Positions 20,856-38,253 of a stretch of 64,000 nucleotides of DNA are shown here, piece by piece. The notes under the pieces were generated by a model, which worked only from the letters and a program-made list of their open reading frames with translations, was not told the origin of the DNA and did not search any database. Made by a program: the position numbers and the translations under genes. Source of the stretch: an uncultured bacterium. Lineage in GTDB: Bacteria > Cyanobacteriota > Vampirovibrionia > Gastranaerophilales > Gastranaerophilaceae. Every line of letters begins with the position of its first letter. The stretch's first letter is position 1. The stretch spans positions 186,001 through 250,000 of the forward strand of contig CACYTP010000001.1 in the NCBI GenBank assembly GCA_902777385.1, written 5' to 3'.

Positions 20856-22415
20856 TTATGCATGTTTTTTATTATTCAATAATAACAGTAACGGAATTAT
20901 TACCAAACACATCAGCCCGAATATTCGGAAAGCATCCATAAATGCCCATAATGTAGCCTGTTTAATCATCTGTCCGTACATAGAATACTGAGCCATATAT
21001 GTTGCAACCGAAGGATGAATATATTGCATTATCGCTCCGCTCGTTGCCTGTAATCTTTCGATATAAGCAGGATTTAAATCGTTAAGCTTACCTACCATCA
21101 TATACTGATGAACTTGTGCAAACCTTGTTAACATTGTTGCAACAAGAGATGTACCAATTGCACCGCCTATGTTTTTTAACAGGTTTTGAATACCCGATGC
21201 GTTTGTCATCTGTTTATTTGAAATTGTATCAAGTGACAGGTTTATTATAGGAACCATTGATAATCCTATACCAAATCCCATAAAGTAATTCGGTATCATG
21301 ATATTTATATTTGCAATTTGCAGATTTAAAAATCCGAAAAACAACCCTGCACCACCAAGGAAACATAAACCAATTGCTACAAGTAATCTTTTATCAACCT
21401 TATCTGCTATTAATGCACAAATAACAGTAGCTGTTAAGCTGCCCAATCCTCTTGGCATCATTGATCTTCCGCTTAAAAATGCAGTGTATCCCATCATACT
21501 CTGTAAAAATTGCGGCAATATTGCAATGGATGCATACAGTACAGACTGCATTACAACTTGGATAAACGTTCCTAATATAAAATTCTTATCTTTAAAAACA
21601 CTTAAATCAATTAATGTATTTTTTCTTTTCCATTGTGATATGAAGAAACATACCATTGAAAGCATTGATATTGCGAAAAGCCATCTTATCCAAGCTGCGT
21701 TAAACCAGTCAGCATTATTTCCCTTATCAAAAAATACCTGTAAGCAACATAACCATAAAATAAGGAAGAAAAATCCCAACCCGTCTAATTTTACGCCTTT
21801 TTGACGTCTTGAATACGGTGGATTAAACAGTAATTTTGAAGCAAGTACCGCAGCTATACAACCAAGAGGGACATTTATGAAAAATATCCAAGGCCATGTC
21901 CAATTATCTGTAATCCATCCGCCTAATACCGGTCCTATGATTGGTGCAATAATTACACCCATCCCGAATATTGCCATCGCAGTCCCACGTTTTTGTTTAG
22001 GGAAACTTTCCATCATTATTGCCTGTGATAGCGGTACTATACCGCCGCCGCCCGCACCCTGCAATATTCTGAAGAACACCATTTGCCCCAGATTTTGTGC
22101 CATTCCGCATAATAAAGAGGCAAATGTAAACAGCAAAATACTTATTACATAAAAGTTTTTGCGTCCGAAAAACTTACTGAAAAAATCTACTGACGGAATT
22201 ATAATACCGCTTGCAATCAGGTAACTTGTCAAAATCCACATTGATTCATCTCTTGTTGCTGAGAAGCTGCCTGCCATGTGCGGTAGTGCAACATTTGCAA
22301 TAGTACCGTCCAAAACAAATACTATTACGGCAATCATTACAGGAATATTGCATACCCAAGGATTTTCGGGTAAATATTTCTCTTCTTCACTTATTTCAGT
22401 TGTTTGTGCGGACAT
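20856..22415 (-). CDS. emrB: EmrB/QacA-type 14-helix MFS multidrug exporter
   Basis: 519 residues with about 14 hydrophobic helices, the DHA2 layout. Family motifs include VFVLDGTIANVALPHMAGS in helix 1 (the D-x-TIVNVALP motif), a GRKNFYV loop between helices 2 and 3, and GAGGGGIVPLSQA plus GPVLGGWITDNWTWPWIFFINVP (motif C region, quoted by its core GPVLGGWITD). It pumps drugs across the inner membrane using proton flux. It is downstream of emrA and marR in one operon, with the outer-membrane channel divergently encoded at 24040. Confidence 0.94.
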   Translation of the reverse strand: MSAQTTEISEEEKYLPENPWVCNIPVMIAVIVFVLDGTIANVALPHMAGSFSATRDESMWILTSYLIASGIIIPSVDFFSKFFGRKNFYVISILLFTFASLLCGMAQNLGQMVFFRILQGAGGGGIVPLSQAIMMESFPKQKRGTAMAIFGMGVIIAPIIGPVLGGWITDNWTWPWIFFINVPLGCIAAVLASKLLFNPPYSRRQKGVKLDGLGFFFLILWLCCLQVFFDKGNNADWFNAAWIRWLFAISMLSMVCFFISQWKRKNTLIDLSVFKDKNFILGTFIQVVMQSVLYASIAILPQFLQSMMGYTAFLSGRSMMPRGLGSLTATVICALIADKVDKRLLVAIGLCFLGGAGLFFGFLNLQIANINIMIPNYFMGFGIGLSMVPIINLSLDTISNKQMTNASGIQNLLKNIGGAIGTSLVATMLTRFAQVHQYMMVGKLNDLNPAYIERLQATSGAIMQYIHPSVATYMAQYSMYGQMIKQATLWAFMDAFRIFGLMCLVIIPLLLLLNNKKHA

Positions 22416-22433
22416 TTTAAACCTTTCCTGTAA

Positions 22434-23441
22434 TTATTTTATATGAACTTTCGGTACAACAGACATTCCAGGAACTATATTGTATTCGTTAGGATCTATT
22501 TTTTCCGTAAATACAATTTTAACCGGAATTCTTTGTACAATTTTTACGAAAGAACCTACAGCATTTTCAGGTGGAAATAAGCTTGATTTTGCACCGGAAC
22601 TTCTCTGAATACTGTCAATTTTTCCTTTGAATACTTTATTTGGATATGTATCAACTTTAATATCAACATCCAATCCCGGTTTCATACCTTTTAGCTGATT
22701 TTCCTTGAAGTTTGCAACAACCCATACTTCGTTAGGAACGATTACGCAAAGTGGGCTGCCCACACTCACATACATACCTTTTTCAACTCTTCTGTTTGCA
22801 ATTGTACCGTCTTGAGGTGCAATAATTTTTGTATATTCAAGATTTTTCGAAGCTTGATTTTTTGCAGCTTTTAAAGCTCTTAAATCAGCATCCGCAACTT
22901 TAGCATCACTATCCGATAAAATAGCTTGTTCCGCATTCGTTAAATTTGCCTGAGCGGCATCATATTTTGCCTGTGCAGCGTCCAAAGTTTGTTTTGATAC
23001 AGCACCTTCTTCATACAATTTTGTATATCTGTCCAAATCTTTTTTGGCAAGTGCAATATTTGATTTTGAAGCCGTTAAATTAGCTTTTGCATTCTGCTGA
23101 TTTAAAAGCATTCTTTCGTAAGCTGCATCAGCTTTGTCTAATGCAATTTCGTAATCAGTAGCATCAATTGTTGCGATTAAATCACCTTCTTTTATCGGTT
23201 GATTATCTTTAATATAAACTTCTGTTATATGACCGCTAACTTTTGGTGCGACAGAAACGGTTGTTGTTTCTACATAAGCATCATCCGTAGATTGGTATTT
23301 CATTGCATCGATAACAAAGTAGCATACGCCTGCAATTATACCTGCTAAAAGTATCAAACCTATGGTCCTTTTTATACCCTTTTTCGGTTTTTTCTTTTCA
23401 TTTGTTTCTTCTGTTAATTCAGTGTTTTGCTGTTCTTCCAT
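22434..23441 (-). CDS. emrA: EmrA/HlyD-type periplasmic adaptor protein
   Basis: 335 residues. A cytoplasmic Lys/Glu-rich N-terminus (1-24) leads into one membrane helix (about 26-46). YQSTDDAYVETTTVSVAPKVSGHI is the typical biotinyl-lipoyl entry of EmrA, cited by its core DDAYVET. A long alpha-helical hairpin follows (about 80-200, with the Ala-rich KYDAAQANLTNAEQA), then the barrel-sandwich return APQDGTIANRRVEKG. It bridges EmrB to an outer-membrane channel. Confidence 0.94.
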   Translation of the reverse strand: MEEQQNTELTEETNEKKKPKKGIKRTIGLILLAGIIAGVCYFVIDAMKYQSTDDAYVETTTVSVAPKVSGHITEVYIKDNQPIKEGDLIATIDATDYEIALDKADAAYERMLLNQQNAKANLTASKSNIALAKKDLDRYTKLYEEGAVSKQTLDAAQAKYDAAQANLTNAEQAILSDSDAKVADADLRALKAAKNQASKNLEYTKIIAPQDGTIANRRVEKGMYVSVGSPLCVIVPNEVWVVANFKENQLKGMKPGLDVDIKVDTYPNKVFKGKIDSIQRSSGAKSSLFPPENAVGSFVKIVQRIPVKIVFTEKIDPNEYNIVPGMSVVPKVHIK

Positions 23442-23450
23442 TTTTACCTC

Positions 23451-23924
23451 TTATATTTTGTTTTCAATGTGTTTTTCTATATTTTGTCTTAGTTGTTTAA
23501 TTGATTGTTTTACTGATTCAAATTCCTCATGTGGAATTTTTTTCGCAATTTCAGTGTATTTGTCAATTATTTTTTTATTTATTTCATCAAGTTTTTTTAT
23601 TCCTTTTTGCGTAATTACAACCTTCTTAATTAATCTGTTATTTTTTGTATCCACAGATCGCTTAATTAATTTTTTTTCCTCCAGTTTATGTAATATTCTT
23701 CCTGTATTTGCTCTGTCAAGCAGTAACAATTTCGCCAAATCTCTCTGGCATAAAGAAGGATTACACATAATTGTATCAAGAGTGGAGTATTCTTCCGGCA
23801 CTAAATCAATATTTAATAATGTAAACTGCTGAGCTGCATGAAATTTCATAATTCTTGCAGTCTGTTTCAGCTCGTAAAATATACTTTCAGTATAATGTGG
23901 TATTTGATTTATGTTTATCATCAT
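23451..23924 (-). CDS. MarR-family transcriptional regulator
   Basis: 157 residues with a winged helix-turn-helix: CNPSLCQRDLAKLLLLDRANTGRILHKLEEKKLIKR, cited by its recognition segment DRANTGRILHKLEE, then the wing with NRLIKKVVITQKG. N- and C-terminal helices would make the dimer. It is first in the marR-emrA-emrB operon and divergent from a TolC-type gene, so it most likely represses both units in response to a small molecule. ATG codons at 23924 and 23921 are both possible. Confidence 0.92.
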   Translation of the reverse strand: MMININQIPHYTESIFYELKQTARIMKFHAAQQFTLLNIDLVPEEYSTLDTIMCNPSLCQRDLAKLLLLDRANTGRILHKLEEKKLIKRSVDTKNNRLIKKVVITQKGIKKLDEINKKIIDKYTEIAKKIPHEEFESVKQSIKQLRQNIEKHIENKI

Positions 23925-23948
23925 TTTATATTTATTATTCCAAATTAT

Positions 23949-23979
23949 GTTGTAAAAAAAATGTGTTGCATTTACAACA
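23949..23979. promoter_or_regulatory. Probable MarR operator (inverted repeat)
   Basis: TGTTGTAAA (23949-23957) and TTTACAACA (23971-23979) are perfect inverted repeats of nine bases with a 13-base spacer, in the gap between marR and the divergent channel gene. A candidate promoter for the channel, TTGCAT (23966-23971), 17 bases, TAACAT (23989-23994), overlaps the right arm. Confidence 0.55.
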
Positions 23980-24039
23980 ATATTATGCTAACATACTGAT
24001 ATAAAAATTGCAAGCAGAATATTATAAGGAAATAAAACA

Positions 24040-25431
24040 TTGAAAAAGACTTTAGCAATAGCACTTTTAATAAGCATGATAGGTATGAATGTTGCCCCCG
24101 TTTTGGCTGCTTCAAATAATCAATCATCGCCAAAAACATTTAAGAGTATGATTAAGAAAAGTAAGAAGCAAAAATCTAATGATTATAAATACGAATATAT
24201 CAATATTGATTGGTGGAAGAATTTTAATGACAGCAATTTGACAGGGTATATAAATAAAGCAATTGAGAATAATTATGATTTAAAAATAGCAACACTTGCC
24301 GTAGAAGAATATTATCAGACAACGAAATTGCAATTGGCAAATGAATTGCCGACAATAGGTGCAGGTTTTTCTCCGGCTTTTGCAAAGATGCCGGGACAAA
24401 CACGTTGGGATTGGTCTTTCGCTACACCTGCTTATGTTAATTATGAATTTGATATTTTCTTAAAAAACAGAGATAAAACTCGTGCTTCAAAAAAAAGATA
24501 TGAGGCTTCCAAATTCGACGAAAGAGCTGCTTATATTGCTATAGCAGGTGCTGTGGGTACAACTTATCTCAATATTGTAAGACTTGATAAAATTATTGAA
24601 CTTCAAAAGAAAATAGTAAACGTAAGACAGGATATATATAATTTGATGCTTGTAAGTAATCGTGAAGGTTTAATCTCGACATCAGATACGATAAAGGCAA
24701 ATAAGGCACTTGTTGCAGGACAGCTTGAATTGACAGAATATCAAAAACAAAGAGAAAAATTACTTCATGCTTTAGCTGTTTTGATTGGTGAAAGTCCTGA
24801 TAATATCAATAATCTTGCAATTACTCCTTATGAAAATATTAATTTTACCGGCGTAATTCCGGAAGAAATCGCCTCAGATATTATTATACAAAGACCGGAT
24901 TTTTTGAGGGCTGAGACAATGGTTGAAAAAGCAGGAATTGATGTAAGAGTTGCAAGAAAAGAATTTTTACCTACAATAAACTTGACGGGTTTGGCTTTGT
25001 TCAATTCAAATAAAATAGGCAGTGCTTGGTCTACAAAGGGTATGCTTGCAGGTATAGCTGCAGGTGCAATGCTTCCTATTTTTACGGGTGGGGCAAGAAT
25101 TGCTAACCTTAAAATTAAAAAAACCGAATATGAAAGACTTTTACAAGATTATTATAAAACTAATTTAACAGCTATTCAGGAGATTAATGATGCATTAGTT
25201 TCCGTAAAAAAGGACAAAGAAAAGCTTGCATCTACGTTAAAACAAGCTGAACTTGAAAAATCTGATTACAATTATACATCTTTAAAATATAACGAGGGTA
25301 TAATTTCAAGATTGGATTTAATTCAAGTTCAGGAAAATATTTTGACTATCGACAAACTTGTTGCACAACAGAATATTGAGTGTATGGTCGATTACATCGG
25401 CTTGTACAAAGCTGTTGGCAGCAAACTCTAA
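24040..25431 (+). CDS. TolC/NodT-type outer-membrane efflux channel
   Basis: 463 residues. A signal peptide (1-23, KKTLAIALLISM...VLA) is followed by two outer-membrane efflux protein repeats, with long helices and the conserved IPEEIASDIIIQRPDFLRAE element near the middle, cited by its core RPDFLRAE. WWKNFND near residue 52 is typical of the NodT subgroup. The start is a TTG at 24040 preceded by AAGGA with nine bases spacing. It completes a tripartite pump with EmrA and EmrB. A second TolC-family gene lies at 55749. Confidence 0.9.
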   Translation: MKKTLAIALLISMIGMNVAPVLAASNNQSSPKTFKSMIKKSKKQKSNDYKYEYINIDWWKNFNDSNLTGYINKAIENNYDLKIATLAVEEYYQTTKLQLANELPTIGAGFSPAFAKMPGQTRWDWSFATPAYVNYEFDIFLKNRDKTRASKKRYEASKFDERAAYIAIAGAVGTTYLNIVRLDKIIELQKKIVNVRQDIYNLMLVSNREGLISTSDTIKANKALVAGQLELTEYQKQREKLLHALAVLIGESPDNINNLAITPYENINFTGVIPEEIASDIIIQRPDFLRAETMVEKAGIDVRVARKEFLPTINLTGLALFNSNKIGSAWSTKGMLAGIAAGAMLPIFTGGARIANLKIKKTEYERLLQDYYKTNLTAIQEINDALVSVKKDKEKLASTLKQAELEKSDYNYTSLKYNEGIISRLDLIQVQENILTIDKLVAQQNIECMVDYIGLYKAVGSKL

Positions 25432-26189: not shown

Positions 26190-26630
26190 TTATTTTGTGA
26201 GTTCTTCAGCCGAATTAATAATGTCTTCCATGTCTATTTCTTCATTAGCTGCTTCTTTGATATTTTGTTTGCTGCGAGAGAATAATTTTTTTACAATATT
26301 CTCATCAATCCATTCGCCCGGTTTTGCACACGCATTTTTGATTTTTTCTGTTGTACTTACAGCATTTTTATTTATCCATTTAGCACCTTTACTGTAGTAT
26401 ATTCCCCACGCTGCACCACCAAGAACAAGAATTCCGCCTGCCAGTTTTGCAATTGTTTTACCGATACTATGTTTCTTTTTTGGTGCATCAATATCGGATT
26501 TATTAATTTCTACTACGTCATTAGGTTGTTCATTCAACGGTGTACTAAACTTTCCGGGCGAATTAAATAATTCTTCACTGCCTCTGAAGTTTACCTGTGA
26601 GCCGTTGTATATTTGTACAGGATTGACCAT
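26190..26630 (-). CDS. Small single-pass protein, lineage-specific family
   Basis: 146 residues. The N-terminus carries VNFRGSEE, followed by a polar region and a Lys-rich KKKHSIGK. A Gly-rich membrane helix follows (about 61-79, LAGGILVLGGAAWGIYY), then SKGAKWINKNAV and a helical, charged C-terminus. The organisation matches the proteins at 6386 and 16122. Function unknown. Its ATG has an AGGAGG-type ribosome site upstream (complement of ACCTCCTTT). Confidence 0.7.
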   Translation of the reverse strand: MVNPVQIYNGSQVNFRGSEELFNSPGKFSTPLNEQPNDVVEINKSDIDAPKKKHSIGKTIAKLAGGILVLGGAAWGIYYSKGAKWINKNAVSTTEKIKNACAKPGEWIDENIVKKLFSRSKQNIKEAANEEIDMEDIINSAEELTK

Positions 26631-26793
26631 TTAGATACCTCCTTTGTTAAACACTGTTATTCAAAAACGACCTTTTTCTTTATTTTGCGGAAAAATTTTT
26701 TCTTTTTCAATTATTGTTACAAAAATTTACAAAAAATTTGGAATAATTTAAAATCGTGCGTACTCTATAAGAGTAGAAGGAGAGTTATGGGAT

Positions 26794-29700
26794 ATGGAAA
26801 ATACAACTTTAATTATAGATGAAAAAGAAAAAGAAAACGCAAAAGCACTTTCTCAGAGTTTTGTAAAGACTGATGTTAAGAGCAGAGCATATATTAATGC
26901 ACTTGGTGCAGAGGTTTGCTTAAAATATTTGAAGGATGAGCAAATTGTTTCTGAAAATGTTTATAATATGCACAATATAAGAAAAATTTTAGAAGAATTT
27001 GATATTTCTGATATTATGCTTTCTAATATTCATCTTGATGTAAGAGTTGTTTATGATGAAGACCGGATTTTTATTCCAAAATCCCATTTTGAATATAATA
27101 TTACGCCGGATATTTATGTTGTTTTAAAAATGGAAAAAGACTGTTCAAAAACAGAGTTATTGGGCTTTTTTGAACCTAAAATGATAAATAAAAACAATTC
27201 AAATGACGAATATTATTTTATGGAAAAAGAAAAACTCTCTTCGCCTGTTGATTTAAAAAGTTTTATAAACAACTTTGAAACAAAGTTTAATAATGAATAT
27301 GATGAGAAATCCATTGAAGATGCGGAAATTTTGATGGTTTCTGTTGCTGATAATGATATTACTGAGCAAGATAAGAAAAAACTTCTTGATTATTTAAAAA
27401 ATAGTGCGGAGTTAAGAGATAAGTTCATTGAATTTGAAAATTTTGAAATGATTTCATATCAGGCAGCTAATACTGTTGATTTTGAAAATAAATTTTATTC
27501 TGCGGAAGATACCGAGATTACTGAAGATACTACAGAAACTTCCGAAGAAGAAGTAATTGGAGCTGCTGATGTTGATATAACAGAAGGTGCTGTTGATGGA
27601 ATCGGTTTAACTGAGGAAACTACCGTTGAAGAAAATGTAGAAAATGCTATATCTGACTTGTCTGGTGAAGTTCAGACAGCTGAAACAGATTTTCAGGAAA
27701 CTTTTGGCAGTGCTACGGAAGAAACAGATATGTCAGATCTTTTTGGTGAAGAAGATAGTAGCCCAACTGAAACGTTAGAAACCGAAACAGTTGGAGATGT
27801 GGTTTCAAATAGTGATAATAATGATGACGACGGACTGTTTGAAGATATGCTAAATGGGCTTGCCGTCGGAGGTGCTGAAATAGCGGGTTCAGCTGTTGCT
27901 TCAGCTGCATTATCAGGAGCTGAAGCCGGAGCAGAAGTTGTTAAAGATACCGCAGAGGCTATTGATGGTCTTACAGGAATTGCAGATAGTTTGGATAATC
28001 CTGCTGAAACTCCTGCCAAAAATGTGTCACAAAGTGAATCTTTATTAAATGATGCTCTGAATTCATTACTTGGACAAGACGAACAGTTACCTGTAAATAC
28101 ACCTTTCGGATATAATACAGGAAATACTTCTTCTGATGCGGATTCTTCATCGGATGATTTAGTATTTTCTAATAATGACGATTATGATGATATTATATTT
28201 GAGAATGATGACAATTATGATCACGGTTCAGGTGGTGGTTCTACCGGAAGGGCATATTTGCCGTCAAATTCAACAAGTAAGCCGGCTATATCAACTGTAA
28301 TCAATACTCCTATATCTGAGGCAACGGATTTAATTTCGATGGAAAGTCTGGAGATGGGTAACATTCCGCCATTAGATGTTCCAAAAGCAGATAACATTGA
28401 TATGATGCAGATGGATGAGTTCCAAAATCTTGTGGATAATTATGTTCCTCAGAAGATTAAAGATGAGTCCGTATGTGTTGATTTTAATGCGATAAATTCA
28501 GAAAGTAATACTTCTGCTGATGCTAAACCACAGTCAATAAAGAGTTTTTCAACTGATAGTCTGATGAAACCTAAGAATGATAATGGTATTGAGTCTGACG
28601 AGTTTGTAGAAGAAATGCCTGATACTGTCACCCCATATATCAGTGCTACTGCTGATACTGTTACATCAGACGAATTTGTGGAAGAAATGCCTGATGAAGT
28701 TGCTCAAAAAGAATTTACCGAGGAAGATAAATTAAACTCTGACAGTTTTGTTCAGGATTTACCGGAAGAGGTACCTCATAAAGAAATAAGTCAGGAAGAT
28801 AAATTAACTTCTGATGATTTTGTTCAGGATATGCCTCAAGAAGAAGTTTCGGATTCAATTTCGAATATGGAAACCAAATCTGAGGATATGGATATGAGTT
28901 TAGCCGTTGATGAAGATTTATTTGGAGAAGAGCTTGGCGGTGCTATTGAAAATGAATTGACACTGGATGAAAAAGCCTTTGACGGATTTGGAAATGTTCC
29001 GTCTATTGGTGAAGATATAACCGGTGAATTGAATGATGAAATTGATATGCCGGATAATATCTCAGATTCAATTGATATGTCGTCTATTGATAATCATGTA
29101 GCAGATTCCTTAAATACAGGTGATTTAACACTTTCCGGTGATGAAACTGATTCTGCAAGCTCAACTCAAACCGAAGAAGTTTCCGCAGTAGATGACAGTA
29201 TGAATTCTTCTGACAATGTTGTATCTGATAATACTGTTCAGGATACGCAATCAGATGAAACATCTTCTGATAATGCTCCTGCTTATGATGAAGTATCAGA
29301 TTTATCTATTTTAGATGAACTCTCTGCATTATCAGGTGAGGATGGTGTTTTCGAATTTGGTAATGAAACGGAAGAGTCTAAGGAAGAACAAGAAATGGGT
29401 CTGTCTGAAGAAGAGGAAGCTGCCGTTCTTGAAAATGTTAATGAAGAAGGAAATAATCTCACGGCTGAGCCTGAAATGCATGCCGAAGATACAGCTGTTT
29501 CTGAAACAGCTGAAAGTGAAGAATCTGCCATGACTCCTTCAGATATTAGTGGGCAGGAAATAGAAATTTGTGAAGAAGAAAATCCGGAAGATGTTGGGTC
29601 TATTCAAGATATTAACTCTATTGAGGATGTTGAATCAATTGATAATATGTCCCAAGATGAATATGATACAAATTCTGAAGAAGACCGTGTGCAAAATCAG

Positions 29701-30528
29701 TCTTTAGGAATTTTGTACAATAACTCTAATACACAGGGTTTGAATAACACTATAATGAATGCAGAAGAAGACTCTTATGATTTTAAACCTAAAAAATCTT
29801 CATCTAAATTAGTACCGATATTTGGAATTTTGGCAATGGTTATAGTTGTAGGTGCAGTTGTTGGTTTTATGATTAAGAGCAAGAACAGTGTCGAATCTGA
29901 AACTCTTATCAGTTCAAATCCTGAAACAAATACTCTGGCAAGTCCGGAAACCGATAACTCAGGTATTTTATCAAATGATAACAACGGTATAGAACCGGCT
30001 ATTCCAACGGATTTATCTCCATCTGCTCCTGCACCGAAAGCTAATCAATCTGCATCACAAGAGCTTTCTAAAGAAGCAAAACAGGCTGCAGTAAAGAATA
30101 CAAAAGAAGCTATTAAAAATACTCAGGAAGCTATTAAAAAACAACAGGCTGCTGCAGGACCTAAGAAACCTATTAATGCAAGCAAGACAATAACTTTGCA
30201 AAAAGTTGCTTGGGAAGTTCCTGATTATTTGTCATACAGTGATAATATGAGAAAGTATTTGCAAACCGCAGGTAAGAGTATCAAGTTAACATTATCAAGT
30301 GATTTGTTATTGACCAGTGATTATATTTATTCAAATCAGGTAAAAGTGAGCATGAAACTCTCTAAAGATGGTACAATACAGAATGCTCAGATTACAAAAT
30401 CAAGTGGTTCAAATCAGGTAGATAATATTGTGTTACAAACTGTTAAAAATACACTAAATGCTGTAAAACCAGCACAGGGCGAGGTTCCGACACCTAACTA
30501 CAATTTAGGTATTATCATTTATCTATAA
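26794..30528 (+). CDS. Giant acidic transmembrane protein: DUF1822-like start, TonB-like end
   Basis: 1244 residues. Residues about 28-130 (SRAYINALGAEVCLKYL, then FEYNITPDIYVVLKM and LLGFFEP) resemble the cyanobacterial DUF1822 family by pattern; this is from memory and needs a profile search. Residues 230-1000 are a very acidic Asp/Glu/Ser/Thr linker with an Ala-rich helix (about 350-400) and four SDxFVxxMP-type repeats (about 600-690). One membrane helix follows (about 1004-1028, IFGILAMVIVVGAVVGFMI). The C-terminal 75 residues (VKVSMKLSKDGTIQNAQITK, then VDNIVLQTVKN) look like a TonB C-terminal domain, so the N-terminus is predicted cytoplasmic and the TonB-like end periplasmic. Sigma factor and ATPase genes follow in the same direction. 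Confidence 0.8.
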   Translation: MENTTLIIDEKEKENAKALSQSFVKTDVKSRAYINALGAEVCLKYLKDEQIVSENVYNMHNIRKILEEFDISDIMLSNIHLDVRVVYDEDRIFIPKSHFEYNITPDIYVVLKMEKDCSKTELLGFFEPKMINKNNSNDEYYFMEKEKLSSPVDLKSFINNFETKFNNEYDEKSIEDAEILMVSVADNDITEQDKKKLLDYLKNSAELRDKFIEFENFEMISYQAANTVDFENKFYSAEDTEITEDTTETSEEEVIGAADVDITEGAVDGIGLTEETTVEENVENAISDLSGEVQTAETDFQETFGSATEETDMSDLFGEEDSSPTETLETETVGDVVSNSDNNDDDGLFEDMLNGLAVGGAEIAGSAVASAALSGAEAGAEVVKDTAEAIDGLTGIADSLDNPAETPAKNVSQSESLLNDALNSLLGQDEQLPVNTPFGYNTGNTSSDADSSSDDLVFSNNDDYDDIIFENDDNYDHGSGGGSTGRAYLPSNSTSKPAISTVINTPISEATDLISMESLEMGNIPPLDVPKADNIDMMQMDEFQNLVDNYVPQKIKDESVCVDFNAINSESNTSADAKPQSIKSFSTDSLMKPKNDNGIESDEFVEEMPDTVTPYISATADTVTSDEFVEEMPDEVAQKEFTEEDKLNSDSFVQDLPEEVPHKEISQEDKLTSDDFVQDMPQEEVSDSISNMETKSEDMDMSLAVDEDLFGEELGGAIENELTLDEKAFDGFGNVPSIGEDITGELNDEIDMPDNISDSIDMSSIDNHVADSLNTGDLTLSGDETDSASSTQTEEVSAVDDSMNSSDNVVSDNTVQDTQSDETSSDNAPAYDEVSDLSILDELSALSGEDGVFEFGNETEESKEEQEMGLSEEEEAAVLENVNEEGNNLTAEPEMHAEDTAVSETAESEESAMTPSDISGQEIEICEEENPEDVGSIQDINSIEDVESIDNMSQDEYDTNSEEDRVQNQSLGILYNNSNTQGLNNTIMNAEEDSYDFKPKKSSSKLVPIFGILAMVIVVGAVVGFMIKSKNSVESETLISSNPETNTLASPETDNSGILSNDNNGIEPAIPTDLSPSAPAPKANQSASQELSKEAKQAAVKNTKEAIKNTQEAIKKQQAAAGPKKPINASKTITLQKVAWEVPDYLSYSDNMRKYLQTAGKSIKLTLSSDLLLTSDYIYSNQVKVSMKLSKDGTIQNAQITKSSGSNQVDNIVLQTVKNTLNAVKPAQGEVPTPNYNLGIIIYL

Positions 30529-30562
30529 TTGTGATATAATGTTATAAGTTAGGGGAATATCA

Positions 30563-31135
30563 GTGGAATTAACACAAGACAAGATAAATCTGATAGAAAG
30601 ATTAATCAAGACAAATCGTAAATTTACCAATAATGAGGATTTATACGAGGATTTTTTTAATGAAACATGCAAACGTTCATTACCTATAATCAGTACAATA
30701 TCCTCAGATTCCACTTTGGAAGTCTATCTTAGAAAAGTTGCAACTTCCAGTATTTTGAATGTTTTAAAAGATTCAGGAAGATTAAGAAGAACCCATGACA
30801 GTTACGTTGCAACAAAAGAGGTTTCTTTGAATGCTCCTGAGCCATCATATTCAAATACATACAACAATATTAAAATAGAATATGAACCTATAGATTTTGA
30901 TAATGGTCCGGAGGATGTTGCAATAAAAAAAGAGGTTTTGACCTTTGTGTTGGATTCTCTGAATAATATCAACAGTCAAGATCCTGACAAACAGTATTTA
31001 GAATTGTACAGACTCCGTTATAAAGAGGGCATGACTCAGAGTGAAATTGCCCGTGAATTGAATTTATCTCAATCGGAAGTATCTAAAAGATTGTTCAAGT
31101 TAATGCAAAAAATTAAAACTTCTCTTAACGGTTAG
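30563..31135 (+). CDS. Small sigma-70-family (ECF-like) factor
   Basis: 190 residues. The C-terminus holds a clear region-4 helix-turn-helix: LYRLRYKEGMTQSEIARELN, then LSQSEVSKRLFKLMQKIK (about 148-187). The N-terminal half (LEVYLRKVATSSILNVLKDSGRLRR, cited by its core VATSSILNVLKDS) resembles region 2.3-2.4 in degenerate form. The start is a GTG at 30563 after an AGGGGAAT site, 34 bases downstream of the giant protein and 14 bases upstream of the ATPase. It probably directs RNA polymerase to a small regulon, with the membrane protein as its likely control partner (inference). Confidence 0.82.
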   Translation: MELTQDKINLIERLIKTNRKFTNNEDLYEDFFNETCKRSLPIISTISSDSTLEVYLRKVATSSILNVLKDSGRLRRTHDSYVATKEVSLNAPEPSYSNTYNNIKIEYEPIDFDNGPEDVAIKKEVLTFVLDSLNNINSQDPDKQYLELYRLRYKEGMTQSEIARELNLSQSEVSKRLFKLMQKIKTSLNG

Positions 31136-31149
31136 CAGAGATTATAATT

Positions 31150-34119
31150 ATGAAATGTCCGGTATGTAAAAAGATTATACCAAATGATTCTTTGAGGTGT
31201 CCTCATTGCAAGACCAGAACAGGTTTGATTTGTAAACATTGTCATACGGTTAATACTATATTTGATGTAGCCTGTAAAAAATGCGGAGAGGAAATACTAA
31301 AGCTGTGTCCGGAATGTAATTGTGTTAATTTCCCTAATACTTCTGTTTGCAGAAAATGCGGTTATAAATTTGAATCCGGTGAAAAAATGCACAGAATTGC
31401 ACCGGATAAAGTTAGAACTCATGTTGTAAATCCTAAATCTTTGCTGCAATACGAGGCAGAAAGTCTTTTAGAGCAAGCTTTATTGTCAGAAGAAAAGAAA
31501 ATTATTTCCCTAAGTGGTATAAGAGGAGTTGGGAAAAGTTATGTATTATCCCGTGTAATAAATAATCTTCAGGGTAATCAGTATGTATGGTTATACGGGA
31601 AATGTACTCCTATTACCCAGATGACTTCAGGAGGTTTGTTACAGGATATTCTGTTTAACCTGTATGACTTGCCTAATTTTTGTATAAATAGTGTAAAATT
31701 TGTAAAAGATGCAACAAAATTATTCAGAAATAAATTTCCGTATTTGAATAATGAAGAAATAAGTGATTTTTTGAACTTTTTGTATCCGTCAAAATTTGGG
31801 GTGTTTGAGGATATTGCAGTAAGAAAAAATAAAACATTCAGCTTGCTGAACAAAATATTTGATAATATAGTTATGTATTCCAAGTTCGTACTTGTTGCGG
31901 ATAATTTTGATTCCGTAGATGCTATGTCTTATGAATTTTTGCATAATTATATTAAGAAGGATACTGTATTTAAGGATTTAAAACTTGTTTTGATATATTC
32001 CGGTACAAAACCGTCAAAAGGCTACTTTAACTTTAGCAGTAAAGGCTGTGAAGATATTTATTTTGATATGCGTATTGCTCCGTTAGACAGAAAAGGAATG
32101 CTTGAATTTATCAAAAATAAAGAAGAAAAAGACTCAAATTTCCCAAAACTGGAGGATACCGAAAGAGAAATAATATTTGCCCAAAGTAAAGGTAATTGTG
32201 CTTATATCGAGCAGGCATGCGGTTTGAAAAAGGATTCTGAATTATGTAATACTCCGTTTGAACTGCCTGAATCTTATGAGGATTTAGTTGCCAAAAGAAT
32301 TTGTCTGTTGAGTGCTATAAATAAGGACGCTTATGATTTTTTGACAGCAGCATCAATTTTGGGTGACAAAATAAACCTTAATCTTGTAAAACAAATTTTT
32401 GAATATGATGATGTTACTTTTGAAAATATTATTGAATTTTTAAAGAAACTGAACTTTATAAGACCGCTAAATGAAATTTTTTACCGATTTAAGGATTTGT
32501 TGTTCTGGGAAACTATGCTTAACATAGCAAAAAATGATGCACAATATGTTGAATTAAATGCAAAAGTCTGCAATGCGTTAGAGAATTTTACCCCGAATTC
32601 CAATGCAATATTTGGCAGGATAGCTCAGAATATCAAAAATCCTAAATTGGCTCTTGATATTTGGACAAGAGGAACAAGGCTTGCGGCATATATTGGTGAT
32701 ACAAGTTTGTATTCATATTCTCAAAAGCAGTGTTTGGCGTTAGTAAATGAGTTGGATGAAACTTCTACACTGAAAATCAGATATAATATTTCTGAACGTT
32801 TAGGCAAATTGTTGGCAGAATATAGTCCTGAGGAGGCTATGGAGTACTTACCTGATGCTATAGCTAATGCAAAGGCTTTGAATGATGTTCCAAGAGAAGT
32901 CGAACTTTTAGGATATATGTCTAGATGTTGTTATGATACGGGTAATTATTTTGGCAATGTAGAATGCGTTGATAATACTCTGGAATCTTTGAGTGATGAC
33001 AAAAAACTTGAGATGGTTCTTGTAAAATGCTCTAAATTAAAGGCTTTACTCGCAATAGGAAATTGCGGTCAAATGGTAAATCTTATAGATAATGAAATTT
33101 TACCCGTATTTGATGAAATTTTATCTCAACAGTATGCAAGAGAGGATATTCCTTTGGCATTTGTCGTAGAAAGTTGGCTGAAATCTCATCTAATGCTTGC
33201 AGAAGCCTTAATAATGCAGGGTAACGACAGAGCATTTGAAGTTTTAACGAAATTATTTGATATTCTTGAAAGAAATAATATTCAGGATGAAGATTTTTCG
33301 TACCAGTGTAAATTAGCGTTGGCACAGGCAAATACTATGAAGGGTAATTATTCTGTTTCTGACAAAATACTGGAAGAGCTGATGAATTTACATGAACATC
33401 AGAATATGAGTGATAATTCTGTTGTCAGATGGAATTATATAAATATCATTAACAATCTTATGCGTCACAAATATAAAGATATTCAGGATGATTTGTTCCA
33501 TACGGTTACTTATGCGACAAATTGCGGTGATAATTTCACCAAAAATATCATGAAATCTTTGCTTGGCAAAGTATTAAAGGATAATGATAAGACAAACAAA
33601 TCAATGGATATTTATAATGAACAGATTGCATATTTTTCAAAAGAAAAAATGGCAATCGGAGCATTGTTAACATGGTATTTAATCGCAGATGCTAAATTAT
33701 CAACAGATATATACGAGGCTTCTGATATAGCACAGAAGGCTCTTGATGTTGCCCAAAATCCGAAAATAGATAACTATTTCTTTGGAGTATTACTCAGAAT
33801 TGTTATGGCAAAGGCTTCTTTTGCAACTTCTGATTTAGGTACAGCAAAAATACATATAACTGATGCGATAAAGATTGCAAAACAGTATGGCATGAACGAC
33901 TTGTTGAGTCGCTTATATCTGTTGTACGGAAAGTATTTTCAAGAATTAGGATTTAAAAAATCTCCGGAACAAAAGAAATATCTTGAAGGTGCGAAGAAAA
34001 TGTATGAACTTGCGGAAAACCTGTTCAAGCAAACAAGGAACACACACGTTCATATTGAAATTGAAGAAGCAAAAAGTACGCTAAAATCTGTTGCCGCAAA
34101 TAATGGTATAAAAATTTAG
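31150..34119 (+). CDS. Triple zinc-ribbon STAND-type ATPase with helical repeats
   Basis: 989 residues. Three zinc ribbons open the protein, each CxxC-N10-CxxC (C3/C6/C17/C20, C28/C31/C42/C45, C53/C56/C67/C70). An AAA/STAND NTPase follows, with Walker A GIRGVGKS near residue 125 and Walker B VLVADNFD near 247. A winged-helix-like part sits around 380-460. The remaining 500 residues are helical TPR-like repeats. This resembles the ATPase cores of signal-sensing regulators (AfsR, MalT, adenylate-cyclase-linked types) but with no recognisable output domain other than the zinc ribbons. It is third in a run with the giant protein and sigma factor. Confidence 0.82.
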   Translation: MKCPVCKKIIPNDSLRCPHCKTRTGLICKHCHTVNTIFDVACKKCGEEILKLCPECNCVNFPNTSVCRKCGYKFESGEKMHRIAPDKVRTHVVNPKSLLQYEAESLLEQALLSEEKKIISLSGIRGVGKSYVLSRVINNLQGNQYVWLYGKCTPITQMTSGGLLQDILFNLYDLPNFCINSVKFVKDATKLFRNKFPYLNNEEISDFLNFLYPSKFGVFEDIAVRKNKTFSLLNKIFDNIVMYSKFVLVADNFDSVDAMSYEFLHNYIKKDTVFKDLKLVLIYSGTKPSKGYFNFSSKGCEDIYFDMRIAPLDRKGMLEFIKNKEEKDSNFPKLEDTEREIIFAQSKGNCAYIEQACGLKKDSELCNTPFELPESYEDLVAKRICLLSAINKDAYDFLTAASILGDKINLNLVKQIFEYDDVTFENIIEFLKKLNFIRPLNEIFYRFKDLLFWETMLNIAKNDAQYVELNAKVCNALENFTPNSNAIFGRIAQNIKNPKLALDIWTRGTRLAAYIGDTSLYSYSQKQCLALVNELDETSTLKIRYNISERLGKLLAEYSPEEAMEYLPDAIANAKALNDVPREVELLGYMSRCCYDTGNYFGNVECVDNTLESLSDDKKLEMVLVKCSKLKALLAIGNCGQMVNLIDNEILPVFDEILSQQYAREDIPLAFVVESWLKSHLMLAEALIMQGNDRAFEVLTKLFDILERNNIQDEDFSYQCKLALAQANTMKGNYSVSDKILEELMNLHEHQNMSDNSVVRWNYINIINNLMRHKYKDIQDDLFHTVTYATNCGDNFTKNIMKSLLGKVLKDNDKTNKSMDIYNEQIAYFSKEKMAIGALLTWYLIADAKLSTDIYEASDIAQKALDVAQNPKIDNYFFGVLLRIVMAKASFATSDLGTAKIHITDAIKIAKQYGMNDLLSRLYLLYGKYFQELGFKKSPEQKKYLEGAKKMYELAENLFKQTRNTHVHIEIEEAKSTLKSVAANNGIKI

Positions 34120-34164: not shown

Positions 34165-34581
34165 ATGAGAAATTTTATTATAAGAATAGCAACAATAGGG
34201 TTATTATTAACAGGCACAGCTTATGCGTGGGGTTGGAATGATATAAAAAAAGCCTATGCGGAAAGTGAAGCCCCTAAACTTACAAAAGTTGCAGCACAGC
34301 ATATATTGGTAAGAACTGCGTCTGATGCTGTTTCTATTAAAAAAGAATTGGATAAAGGCGGGAATTTTGAATATTATGCTCAAAAGTATTCAATATGTCC
34401 GTCAGGTAAAAATGGCGGTTACTTAGGCTATTTTGAAAAAGGTCAGATGGTTCCTGAATTTGAGAAAAAAGCTTTTTCAATGGAGGTTGGTGAAATTTCA
34501 AACCCTATCAGAACTAATTTTGGCTGGCATATTATAAGAGTTGTTGACAAGGTTTATGAAGAAAAATACGGTCGTGACTAA
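34165..34581 (+). CDS. Exported parvulin-type peptidyl-prolyl isomerase
   Basis: 138 residues. A signal peptide (1-21, ending in TAYA) is followed by a rotamase domain: AAQHILVRT, FEYYAQKYSICPSGKNGGYLG, cited by its core SICPSGKNGG, then GQMVPEFEKKAF and IRTNFGWHIIRV. These are the parvulin signatures. There is no SurA- or PrsA-like chaperone domain, so it is a minimal secreted isomerase. It lies 45 bases after the ATPase gene and may share its transcript, which would add a periplasmic component to that cluster. Confidence 0.9.
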   Translation: MRNFIIRIATIGLLLTGTAYAWGWNDIKKAYAESEAPKLTKVAAQHILVRTASDAVSIKKELDKGGNFEYYAQKYSICPSGKNGGYLGYFEKGQMVPEFEKKAFSMEVGEISNPIRTNFGWHIIRVVDKVYEEKYGRD

Positions 34582-37372: not shown

Positions 37373-37442
37373 CCCCTCTACCGTCGGGAGAGGGCAGAAA
37401 ATCGACTTTAGCAAAGCGAAAGTCAGATTTTCGGGTGAGGGG
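37373..37442. repeat. Palindromic repeat element upstream of pseudopilin
   Basis: Outer arms CCCCTCTACC (37373-37382) and GGGTGAGGGG (37433-37442), and inner arms AAAATCGACTTT and AAAGTCAGATTTT, fold into one long imperfect hairpin. A nested CCTCTACC/GGGAGAGG also pairs. GC content is far above the surroundings, like a REP/BIME-type element. It lies inside an open frame. Confidence 0.65.
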
Positions 37443-37468
37443 TCAGACCTTTCAGATAGTGTTAAATC
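37428..37468 (+). repeat. 41-base segment shared with second pseudopilin (copy 1)
   Basis: Identical over 41 bases to 51996-52036. It starts TTTTCGGGTGAGGGG, the right end of the palindromic element, and ends GTGTTAAATC. Confidence 0.9.
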
Positions 37469-38253
37469 CGCACATAGCTCAGTCCCCAAAGCCTCGTCGT
37501 GTCGCCTTTACTCTCGCTGAAGTTTTAATCACCCTCGGTATTATCGGTGTTGTTGCGGCAATGACATTACCTGCTTTAATACAGAATTATCAGAAAGGTG
37601 TTGCATTAAATCGTTTAAAACAAACCTATGCACAAGTTCAAACAGCTATAGATACGGTTGCAGCCAGAGATTTTGACGGACTTCCTTTACATCAGTGGAG
37701 TTGCGATGGTCAAACAAAGTTTAGTGGCGTAAGATCTTGGGGAGAAAGATATGGTGACGCTTGTCTTTATCTTGCAATACAAGAGATTGCCGTAAAAATG
37801 TATCCTCAACCTGACAGTATAGAACATGCAATGTGCTATGAAGAAGGTAGAGAGTATAGACCTTATACCGGACTTGGAGGAGGTACTTCTGAATTTAGCG
37901 ATGGAAATAAACTTTCTACAGCAGGTATATCAGCATTACTTCCTAATGGTGCTTGTGTTCGCTGGCATTGGGCTGCACATGCATTTAATGCAAGAAGTAC
38001 TATAGTATTTGATATTGATGGACCTTATTCCGGATATAATCAGTATGGAAAGGATGTTTTTAAGTATTATTACTCCACACCTAATACAGGAATAGGCAGA
38101 GGTGCAAATGGCAGACTTCTTGAAGCACATAATCAAGGAGCACGGAGATCAGACTTAAAAAATTATTGCAAAAAAAATCAAGATTGGGCAAATTCATGCG
38201 AAGCTCTAATATTAAACGACGGCTGGCAGATGAAGTCCGATTATCCGTGGTAA
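37435..38253 (+). CDS. Type II/IV pseudopilin-like protein; start uncertain, possibly frameshifted
   Basis: 272 residues as an open frame from GTG 37435. RRVA-FTLAEVLITLGIIGVVAAM is the prepilin cleavage and helix motif (cited by AFTLAEVLITLG), followed by PALIQNYQ and a variable secreted domain of about 200 residues with paired Cys. A prepilin peptidase would cut before FTLAEV. No ATG precedes the motif; GTG 37435 or GTG 37459 would give leaders of about 24 or 16 residues, neither with a good ribosome site. The well-initiated frame from 37264 is out of phase, so expression may need slippage or may be lost. The relative at 52107 ends with the same NDGWQ-K-DYPW motif. Confidence 0.75.
   Translation: MRGQTFQIVLNPHIAQSPKPRRVAFTLAEVLITLGIIGVVAAMTLPALIQNYQKGVALNRLKQTYAQVQTAIDTVAARDFDGLPLHQWSCDGQTKFSGVRSWGERYGDACLYLAIQEIAVKMYPQPDSIEHAMCYEEGREYRPYTGLGGGTSEFSDGNKLSTAGISALLPNGACVRWHWAAHAFNARSTIVFDIDGPYSGYNQYGKDVFKYYYSTPNTGIGRGANGRLLEAHNQGARRSDLKNYCKKNQDWANSCEALILNDGWQMKSDYPW

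Follow-up and report, generated by a model that had tools for sequence, protein, structure and literature searches.

The first two genes of a three-gene run in this DNA most probably encode a membrane-bound class I anti-sigma factor (P1) and the ECF sigma factor that it holds in check (P2). Judging from sequence and modelled structure, we put the chance that this reading is right as a whole, with an envelope signal, autoregulation of the operon and a switching role for the third protein (P3, a zinc-ribbon STAND-type ATPase), at roughly three in four. The layout appears to be a novel arrangement within an established type of envelope-to-gene signalling, that of membrane anti-sigma and ECF sigma factors, and almost all Gastranaerophilales, gut and rumen relatives of cyanobacteria, possess the two genes, often together with that for the ATPase.

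The window, by which we mean the whole stretch of 64,000 nucleotides analysed, comes from a genome of 2.32 Mb; of the entries in the genome collection, those nearest to it are Candidatus Gastranaerophilales and rumen or gut MAGs. An earlier note, made from the letters alone, had described three co-directional genes separated by gaps of 34 and 14 bases and had interpreted them as a transmembrane anti-sigma-like relay. The strand (+) and both gap lengths were recovered from the open reading frames (Table 1), and the interpretation is supported by the comparisons below. The proposal that an exported parvulin encoded at 34165 might be a fourth part did not survive. Domain searches confirmed the gene as a parvulin, and no other ORF matched its profile in 61 sequences, 60 of which were loci around DUF1822 genes; its absence from the relatives' loci rules it out as a component of the system.

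Table 1. Features of the P1-P2-P3 locus, in positions of the window.
Feature	Position	Strand	Basis or remark
Tandem TTACA element GTTACAAAAATTTACA	26716..26731	+	5' of the promoter candidate; two copies about ten bases apart; once in the window
ECF-type promoter candidate TGGAATAATTTAAAATCGTGCGTACTC (-35 GGAAT / -10 GTMMTC)	26739..26765	+	Conserved 5' of P1
P1, 1244 aa	26794..30528	+	DUF1822, anti-sigma domain, acidic linker, one TM helix, TonB-like domain predicted to be periplasmic
DUF1822 domain, P1 residues 8-174	26815..27315	+	Pfam 34.8 bits (cut-off 25); hhalign; AlphaFold2
Class I anti-sigma domain, P1 residues 171-226	27304..27471	+	RsiW profile match, HMM, model helices; zinc ligands lost in the window's clade
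Acidic low-complexity linker, P1 residues 236-1008 (~770 residues)	27499..29817	+	26% D+E, 3% K+R
Single transmembrane helix, P1 residues 1009-1027	29818..29874	+	Hydropathy; one hydrophobic segment in P1
TonB/TolA C-terminal-type domain, probably periplasmic, P1 residues ~1137-1244	30202..30525	+	TonB_2, TIGR01352, AlphaFold2, Foldseek
P2, ECF-type sigma factor, 190 aa, GTG start	30563..31135	+	TIGR02937 71.9 bits; SigW 5wuq_A the best profile match
P3 (989 aa), STAND-type ATPase with zinc ribbons and TPR-like in its C-terminal half	31150..34119	+	DZR over cut-off; Walker A; 12 ribbon Cys

The resemblance of the start of P1 to DUF1822 (PF08852), first suspected by eye, was borne out by a Pfam match above the gathering cut-off, but just the first ~170 of the 370 family positions are matched. 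The second half of the family is absent from P1, and the anti-sigma domain and the remaining parts of the protein stand there instead. Alignment with cyanobacterial DUF1822 by hhalign gave 97% probability over columns 9-192 only, which makes the anti-sigma domain specific to the Gastranaerophilales protein. Residues 1-235 were modelled by AlphaFold2 at a pLDDT of 92.3. For the DUF1822 part of this model Foldseek returned no convincing fold match; the best, NaeI, was not accepted (E 0.016, TM 0.26, rmsd 18.9).

An anti-sigma-like role had been inferred from the company of the gene. A true anti-sigma domain is indeed present, but it is a separate domain that follows DUF1822 rather than DUF1822 itself. 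When an order-wide profile of P1 residues 1-235 was compared with all PDB sequences, the best match was RsiW (5wuq_C, E 1.5e-4, columns 175-221), followed by weaker matches to DdvA and 3hug_B (E 0.17-0.37). The corresponding best match of the P2 profile was SigW (5wuq_A, E 7.7e-5), RsiW and SigW being both members of one solved complex, entry 5wuq. As a positive control, the anti-sigma columns of the profile also picked out short proteins elsewhere in the class, and all six that we checked (6/6) lie directly beside ECF sigma genes. The AlphaFold2 model places helices at residues 171-185, 191-203 and 205-226, and Foldseek aligned it to one chain of the AlgU-MucA complex, 71 residues long and therefore presumed to be MucA, with an rmsd of 0.9 A over 50 columns; the E value of 4.1 is what one expects with a chain of this length. 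P1 thus has the three-helix anti-sigma domain of class I in its cytoplasmic part, and an ECF sigma gene adjoins it.

Zinc ligands are found in some of these proteins only. The motif HxxxCxxC occurs at residues 197-210 in 15 of 41 P1 homologues, from families f1, f2, f3 and f4, within the frame LFLSYLDNEIS..K.FLIKHL..C..CR..F, and Pfam zf-HC2 (cut-off 22.2) reaches 26.3 bits in one of them (L117), 22.0 in another (L083, just under) and lower values in others. It is absent from the window's P1 and from all 21 sequences of its clade, which has a branch support of 100/98 in a tree whose root is not known; their position on one supported branch points to one loss, if the motif is ancestral. Hx3Cx2C is optional in class I anti-sigma factors (ASDI), occurring in about half of the class, and zinc-binding and zinc-less members are mixed within groups, RskA and RseA being without zinc (PMC7406223). 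An HMM built from the 15 zinc-carrying sequences alone gave the window's P1 21.1 bits at residues 172-225, against 7.8 for the best of 520 shuffles. With the same HMM, 24 of the 26 zinc-less homologues outscored all 520 shuffles, and the 39 best matches over 2508 ORFs were all the DUF1822/anti-sigma protein. A profile of the window's zinc-less clade alone (A6) matched no solved structure in the PDB at E values up to 10, so the anti-sigma assignment in this clade rests on homology to the zinc-carrying relatives.

It is conceivable, though we consider it unlikely, that the domain of the window's clade is a decayed remnant, in which case P1 would serve as a scaffold or positive cofactor instead of an inhibitor of P2 and the STAND ATPase would do the regulating. 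Zinc ligands missing from a whole, well-supported clade, a clade-only profile that finds no anti-sigma structure, and cyanobacterial DUF1822 proteins that adjoin sigma genes with no anti-sigma domain would all fit such decay. Against it, the three-helix region has been kept and is modelled with high confidence, and at six of its positions (D186, L197, L207, R208, E213 and E218) no change occurs among 77 sequences.

Most relatives share the acidic bias of the P1 linker, and almost all complete ones have at least one hydrophobic segment. The far end of P1 had been likened to a TonB C-terminal domain, and two curated models agree above their cut-offs: TonB_2 with 28.5 bits over residues 1179-1232 (Pfam cut-off 22) and tonB_Cterm TIGR01352 with 31.3 bits (cut-off 27.1). 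AlphaFold2 modelled residues 1120-1244 at a pLDDT of 93.1, and the top 17 Foldseek matches of the C-terminal model in the PDB were all TonB/TolA family domains or complexes containing them, with modest scores (E no lower than 0.03, target TM-scores reaching 0.61 at most). Because of this domain content and the lysines before the helix, we infer that the N-terminal part of P1 is cytoplasmic and the TonB-like end periplasmic.

Such an end could also mean that P1 is mainly an envelope protein, either a TonB/TolA-like energy transducer or a structural tether, and that the sigma gene is merely co-transcribed with it. Besides the TonB_2 and fold matches, this would be in keeping with the ExbD pair and TonB_2 gene found elsewhere in the genome, through which an energised partner for P1 could exist; the same locus counts the other way as well, since a Ton/Tol-like system is then already present. 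P1 is also unlike whole TonB energy transducers, which are short, anchored at the N-terminus, devoid of a cytoplasmic domain and partnered by ExbB/ExbD: some 1000 residues precede its TM helix. TonB proteins generally have no cytoplasmic domain (PMC8262864), whereas the cytoplasmic part of P1 is large and includes the anti-sigma domain. Given in addition the order-wide link of P1 with the sigma factor, we allow this explanation a slim chance. The operon also differs from FecR-type cell-surface signalling systems, as no FecR domain matched in P1 and none of P1-P3 is a TonB-dependent transducer. Outside the window, a TonB_2 gene followed by two ExbD genes lies at G000:C7:20959-22801, and the genome has nine TonB_2 matches in all.

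P2, previously recognized as a small sigma factor, scored 71.9 bits with the sigma70-ECF model TIGR02937 over residues 14-187 (cut-off 42.9). Sigma70_r4 is over its Pfam cut-off, and region 2 was not among the 25 Pfam matches listed. The protein fits the build of an ECF sigma factor, a small protein of the sigma-70 family that has just regions 2 and 4. P3 had been read as a three-zinc-ribbon STAND ATPase with TPR-like repeats, of which the ribbons were corroborated by a double zinc ribbon (DZR) match of 29.4 bits (cut-off 27.3) and by 12 ribbon cysteines that are invariant in 21/21 relatives, while TPR stayed below cut-off in the window's protein. AAA_16 is likewise below cut-off there, and both domains pass in some relatives (AAA_16 in L119 and L085, TPR_12 in L115 and L118). 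The Walker A motif GIRGVGKS lies at residues 123-130 and D257 is invariant; as a P-loop NTPase with Walker motifs and superhelical repeats, P3 has the defining features of a STAND ATPase. Walker A is lost in the relative L120, so the predicted ATPase activity is not universal. In the relatives L085 and L115 the part between ribbons and ATPase looked to us like a decayed nucleotide cyclase, a reading that Pfam did not bear out. A second, distant P3-related zinc-ribbon protein of ~1186 residues is encoded outside the window (G000:C2:37294-40068).

The sequence before P1 contains a candidate ECF-type promoter. All of the loci (77/77) have TGGAAT, in most cases at a distance of 50-58 bases from the P1 start, and all 77 have the fuller consensus TGGAATA-W-TTT-N8, followed by G-Y-G-T-M-M-T-C or a close variant. 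With 0-1 mismatch the motif stands at P1 in 13/13 genomes of the genus, with one other 1-mismatch copy, in G003; further copies with 2 mismatches in these 13 genomes were nearly as rare as those of a reversed-pattern control, and an attempt to trace a regulon by the motif gave nothing clearly above this control beyond the operon itself. A motif that stands 5' of the first gene, essentially once per genome, points to autoregulation, and the simplest account is that it represents the -35/-10 pair read by P2. The GGAATA core also precedes the same gene in families f2, f4, f5 and f6, and the f3 and f7 loci that we inspected did not show it. All 77 loci of the window's family retain the tandem TTACA element with minor variation, and the repeats are absent upstream of the same gene in other families.

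Of the order's 286 genomes, 277 have a match to the DUF1822/anti-sigma profile (256 of the 261 good ones), mostly as a single copy per genome, and 283 have one to the P2 sigma profile, some of these matches being weak. One weak match (L259, genus g42) is a 476-aa sigma-like protein within the same operon. The earlier note had offered co-occurrence of the three genes in relatives as a test. In a neighbourhood survey of 80 loci from the named genome collection, in four of which the DUF1822 part lay beyond the fetched DNA and in four of which it was a separate ORF, the sigma and then the STAND gene followed 3' of the TonB-like gene in 80/80. Because this order is kept with similarly short gaps, mostly 32-40 and 4-18 bases, the run is more than chance. 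In-operon sigma proteins at L259:7842-9272 and L085:10914-11801 have long acidic inserts between their two DNA-binding regions.

In three of the four loci with a separate ORF (L179, L181 and L207), a DUF1822/anti-sigma protein of ~300 residues is followed by a separate linker/TM/TonB protein. The first gene is split in the same way in G028, of genus g17, and open frames of 308-341 residues in other g17 genomes suggest the same, which means that a covalent tether is not needed in every case. A natural split of this kind would suit a cytoplasmic fragment that acts after being cut from the membrane part, or two parts that reassemble. Linkage of the other genes varies among families. The zinc-ribbon STAND gene adjoins the sigma gene in families f1, f5 and f7; in most genomes of the other families a close relative of P3 is encoded elsewhere, unlinked, so that in all 55/57 relatives have the protein. 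P1 has no sigma gene beside it in genomes G013 and G032 or in family f6, yet in f6, with its sigma gene elsewhere, the GGAATA promoter core still stands 5' of the first gene. The unlinked sigma gene of three f6 genomes (L254, L255 and L256) is next to a metal-dependent-hydrolase-like gene and two regulator-like genes.

The earlier remark that cyanobacterial DUF1822 genes stand near sigma factors proved correct, with a sigma gene directly upstream in many of the loci that we sampled. In cyanobacteria and in the large-genome family f8 of the same class, DUF1822 is mostly a TM-free protein. The cyanobacterial loci resemble ours in having a homologous domain encoded directly beside a sigma gene, as do the EACC2-caspase systems, but the cyanobacterial proteins are of ~310-460 aa, have no anti-sigma domain, and in some loci are followed by a CHAT or CHAT-CHASE2 gene rather than by zinc-ribbon STAND ATPases. 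Since STAND ATPases are also known from immunity, one might suspect that the window's operon is a conflict or defence module, all the more as CHAT genes lie beside DUF1822 in the cyanobacterial loci and EACC2-caspase gene neighbourhoods of other bacteria carry an ECF sigma and a DUF1822 gene (PMC8195603). We regard this as having a slimmer chance still, as the genes are near-universal in the order and mostly single copy, unlike patchy defence genes, and no CHAT or caspase-like domain was recognized in P1-P3 or in the parvulin. PADLOC gave no match to a defence system for P1 or P3. In family f8 (L281-L283), TM-free DUF1822 genes are flanked on one side by the gene of an HHH_3 protein and on the other, in L281 and L283, by that of a double-zinc-ribbon protein, which is a second association of DUF1822 with zinc ribbons.

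Among described systems, SigW/RsiW and AlgU/MucA, which gave the profile and fold matches, are alike in pairing a sigma factor with a co-encoded anti-sigma factor with a single TM helix. In our operon, however, the anti-sigma gene comes first, DUF1822 precedes the anti-sigma domain, the acidic linker is inserted, the C-terminal domain is of TonB/TolA type, a STAND ATPase is the third gene, and the zinc ligands are lost in the window's clade. As to the earlier statement that no described system matches, our search of the open-licence literature turned up no anti-sigma factor whose periplasmic domain is of TonB/TolA type, but class I anti-sigma factors as such are described and neighbourhoods of sigma and DUF1822 genes are in print (PMC8195603). 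The PUMA3 cell-surface signalling pathway of Pseudomonas aeruginosa (VreA/VreI/VreR), likewise built on an ECF sigma factor, employs a TolA/TonB-like domain in the periplasm (PMC2729926). There the domain is part of VreA, a separate protein of the periplasm that is mostly soluble and also has a TonB-receptor signalling domain, whereas here it is fused to the anti-sigma factor. GltJ/AgmX of gliding motility offers a parallel in working, likened by description and not by sequence, with a cytoplasmic regulatory part, a TM helix and a TonB-like end; sigma, DUF1822 and an anti-sigma domain are not known there. Its C-terminal domain is similar to TonB (PMC8262864).

On the anti-sigma reading that we favour, P1 residues 171-226 would at rest keep P2 inactive on the cytoplasmic side of the inner membrane, tethered by the long acidic linker and the one TM helix. 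The TonB/TolA-type domain would sense conditions in the periplasm or at the outer membrane, probably via a binding partner there, and a signal at this end would free P2 through cleavage of P1 or a change in its shape. Released P2 would then direct transcription of the operon that encodes it, using the conserved site 5' of P1. For P3 the likeliest role is that of a cytoplasmic switch acting on the DUF1822/anti-sigma part or on the sigma factor. More speculatively, and with clear doubt, DUF1822 may be a sigma-control domain of the whole Cyanobacteriota lineage that in Gastranaerophilales became a one-protein line from the outer membrane to RNA polymerase, its TonB/TolA-type domain sensing attachment or force at the outer membrane, with the zinc-ribbon STAND ATPase as an obligatory switch that frees sigma. 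The anti-sigma proposal gives a DUF1822 protein, for the first time, a role that can be tested, names a near-universal, mostly single-copy candidate envelope signalling unit in an uncultured order of animal guts, and would add to the known anti-sigma layouts one with a TonB/TolA-type sensor end, a giant acidic linker and a STAND ATPase partner.

Several other genes of the window are worth recording. Divergent from the operon, at 26190-26630 (-), is a gene for a 146-aa protein with the N-terminal sequence YNGSQVNFRG and one hydrophobic helix, and most loci of the genus, as well as many in the family, have a divergent frame of similar size at this position. Judging from their translations, genes for a MarR-type regulator, a membrane-fusion protein, an MFS drug exporter and an outer-membrane efflux-like protein are grouped at 20856-25431, and 37435-38253 encodes a pilin-like protein with an N-terminal FTLAEVLITLGIIGVVAAMTLP segment.
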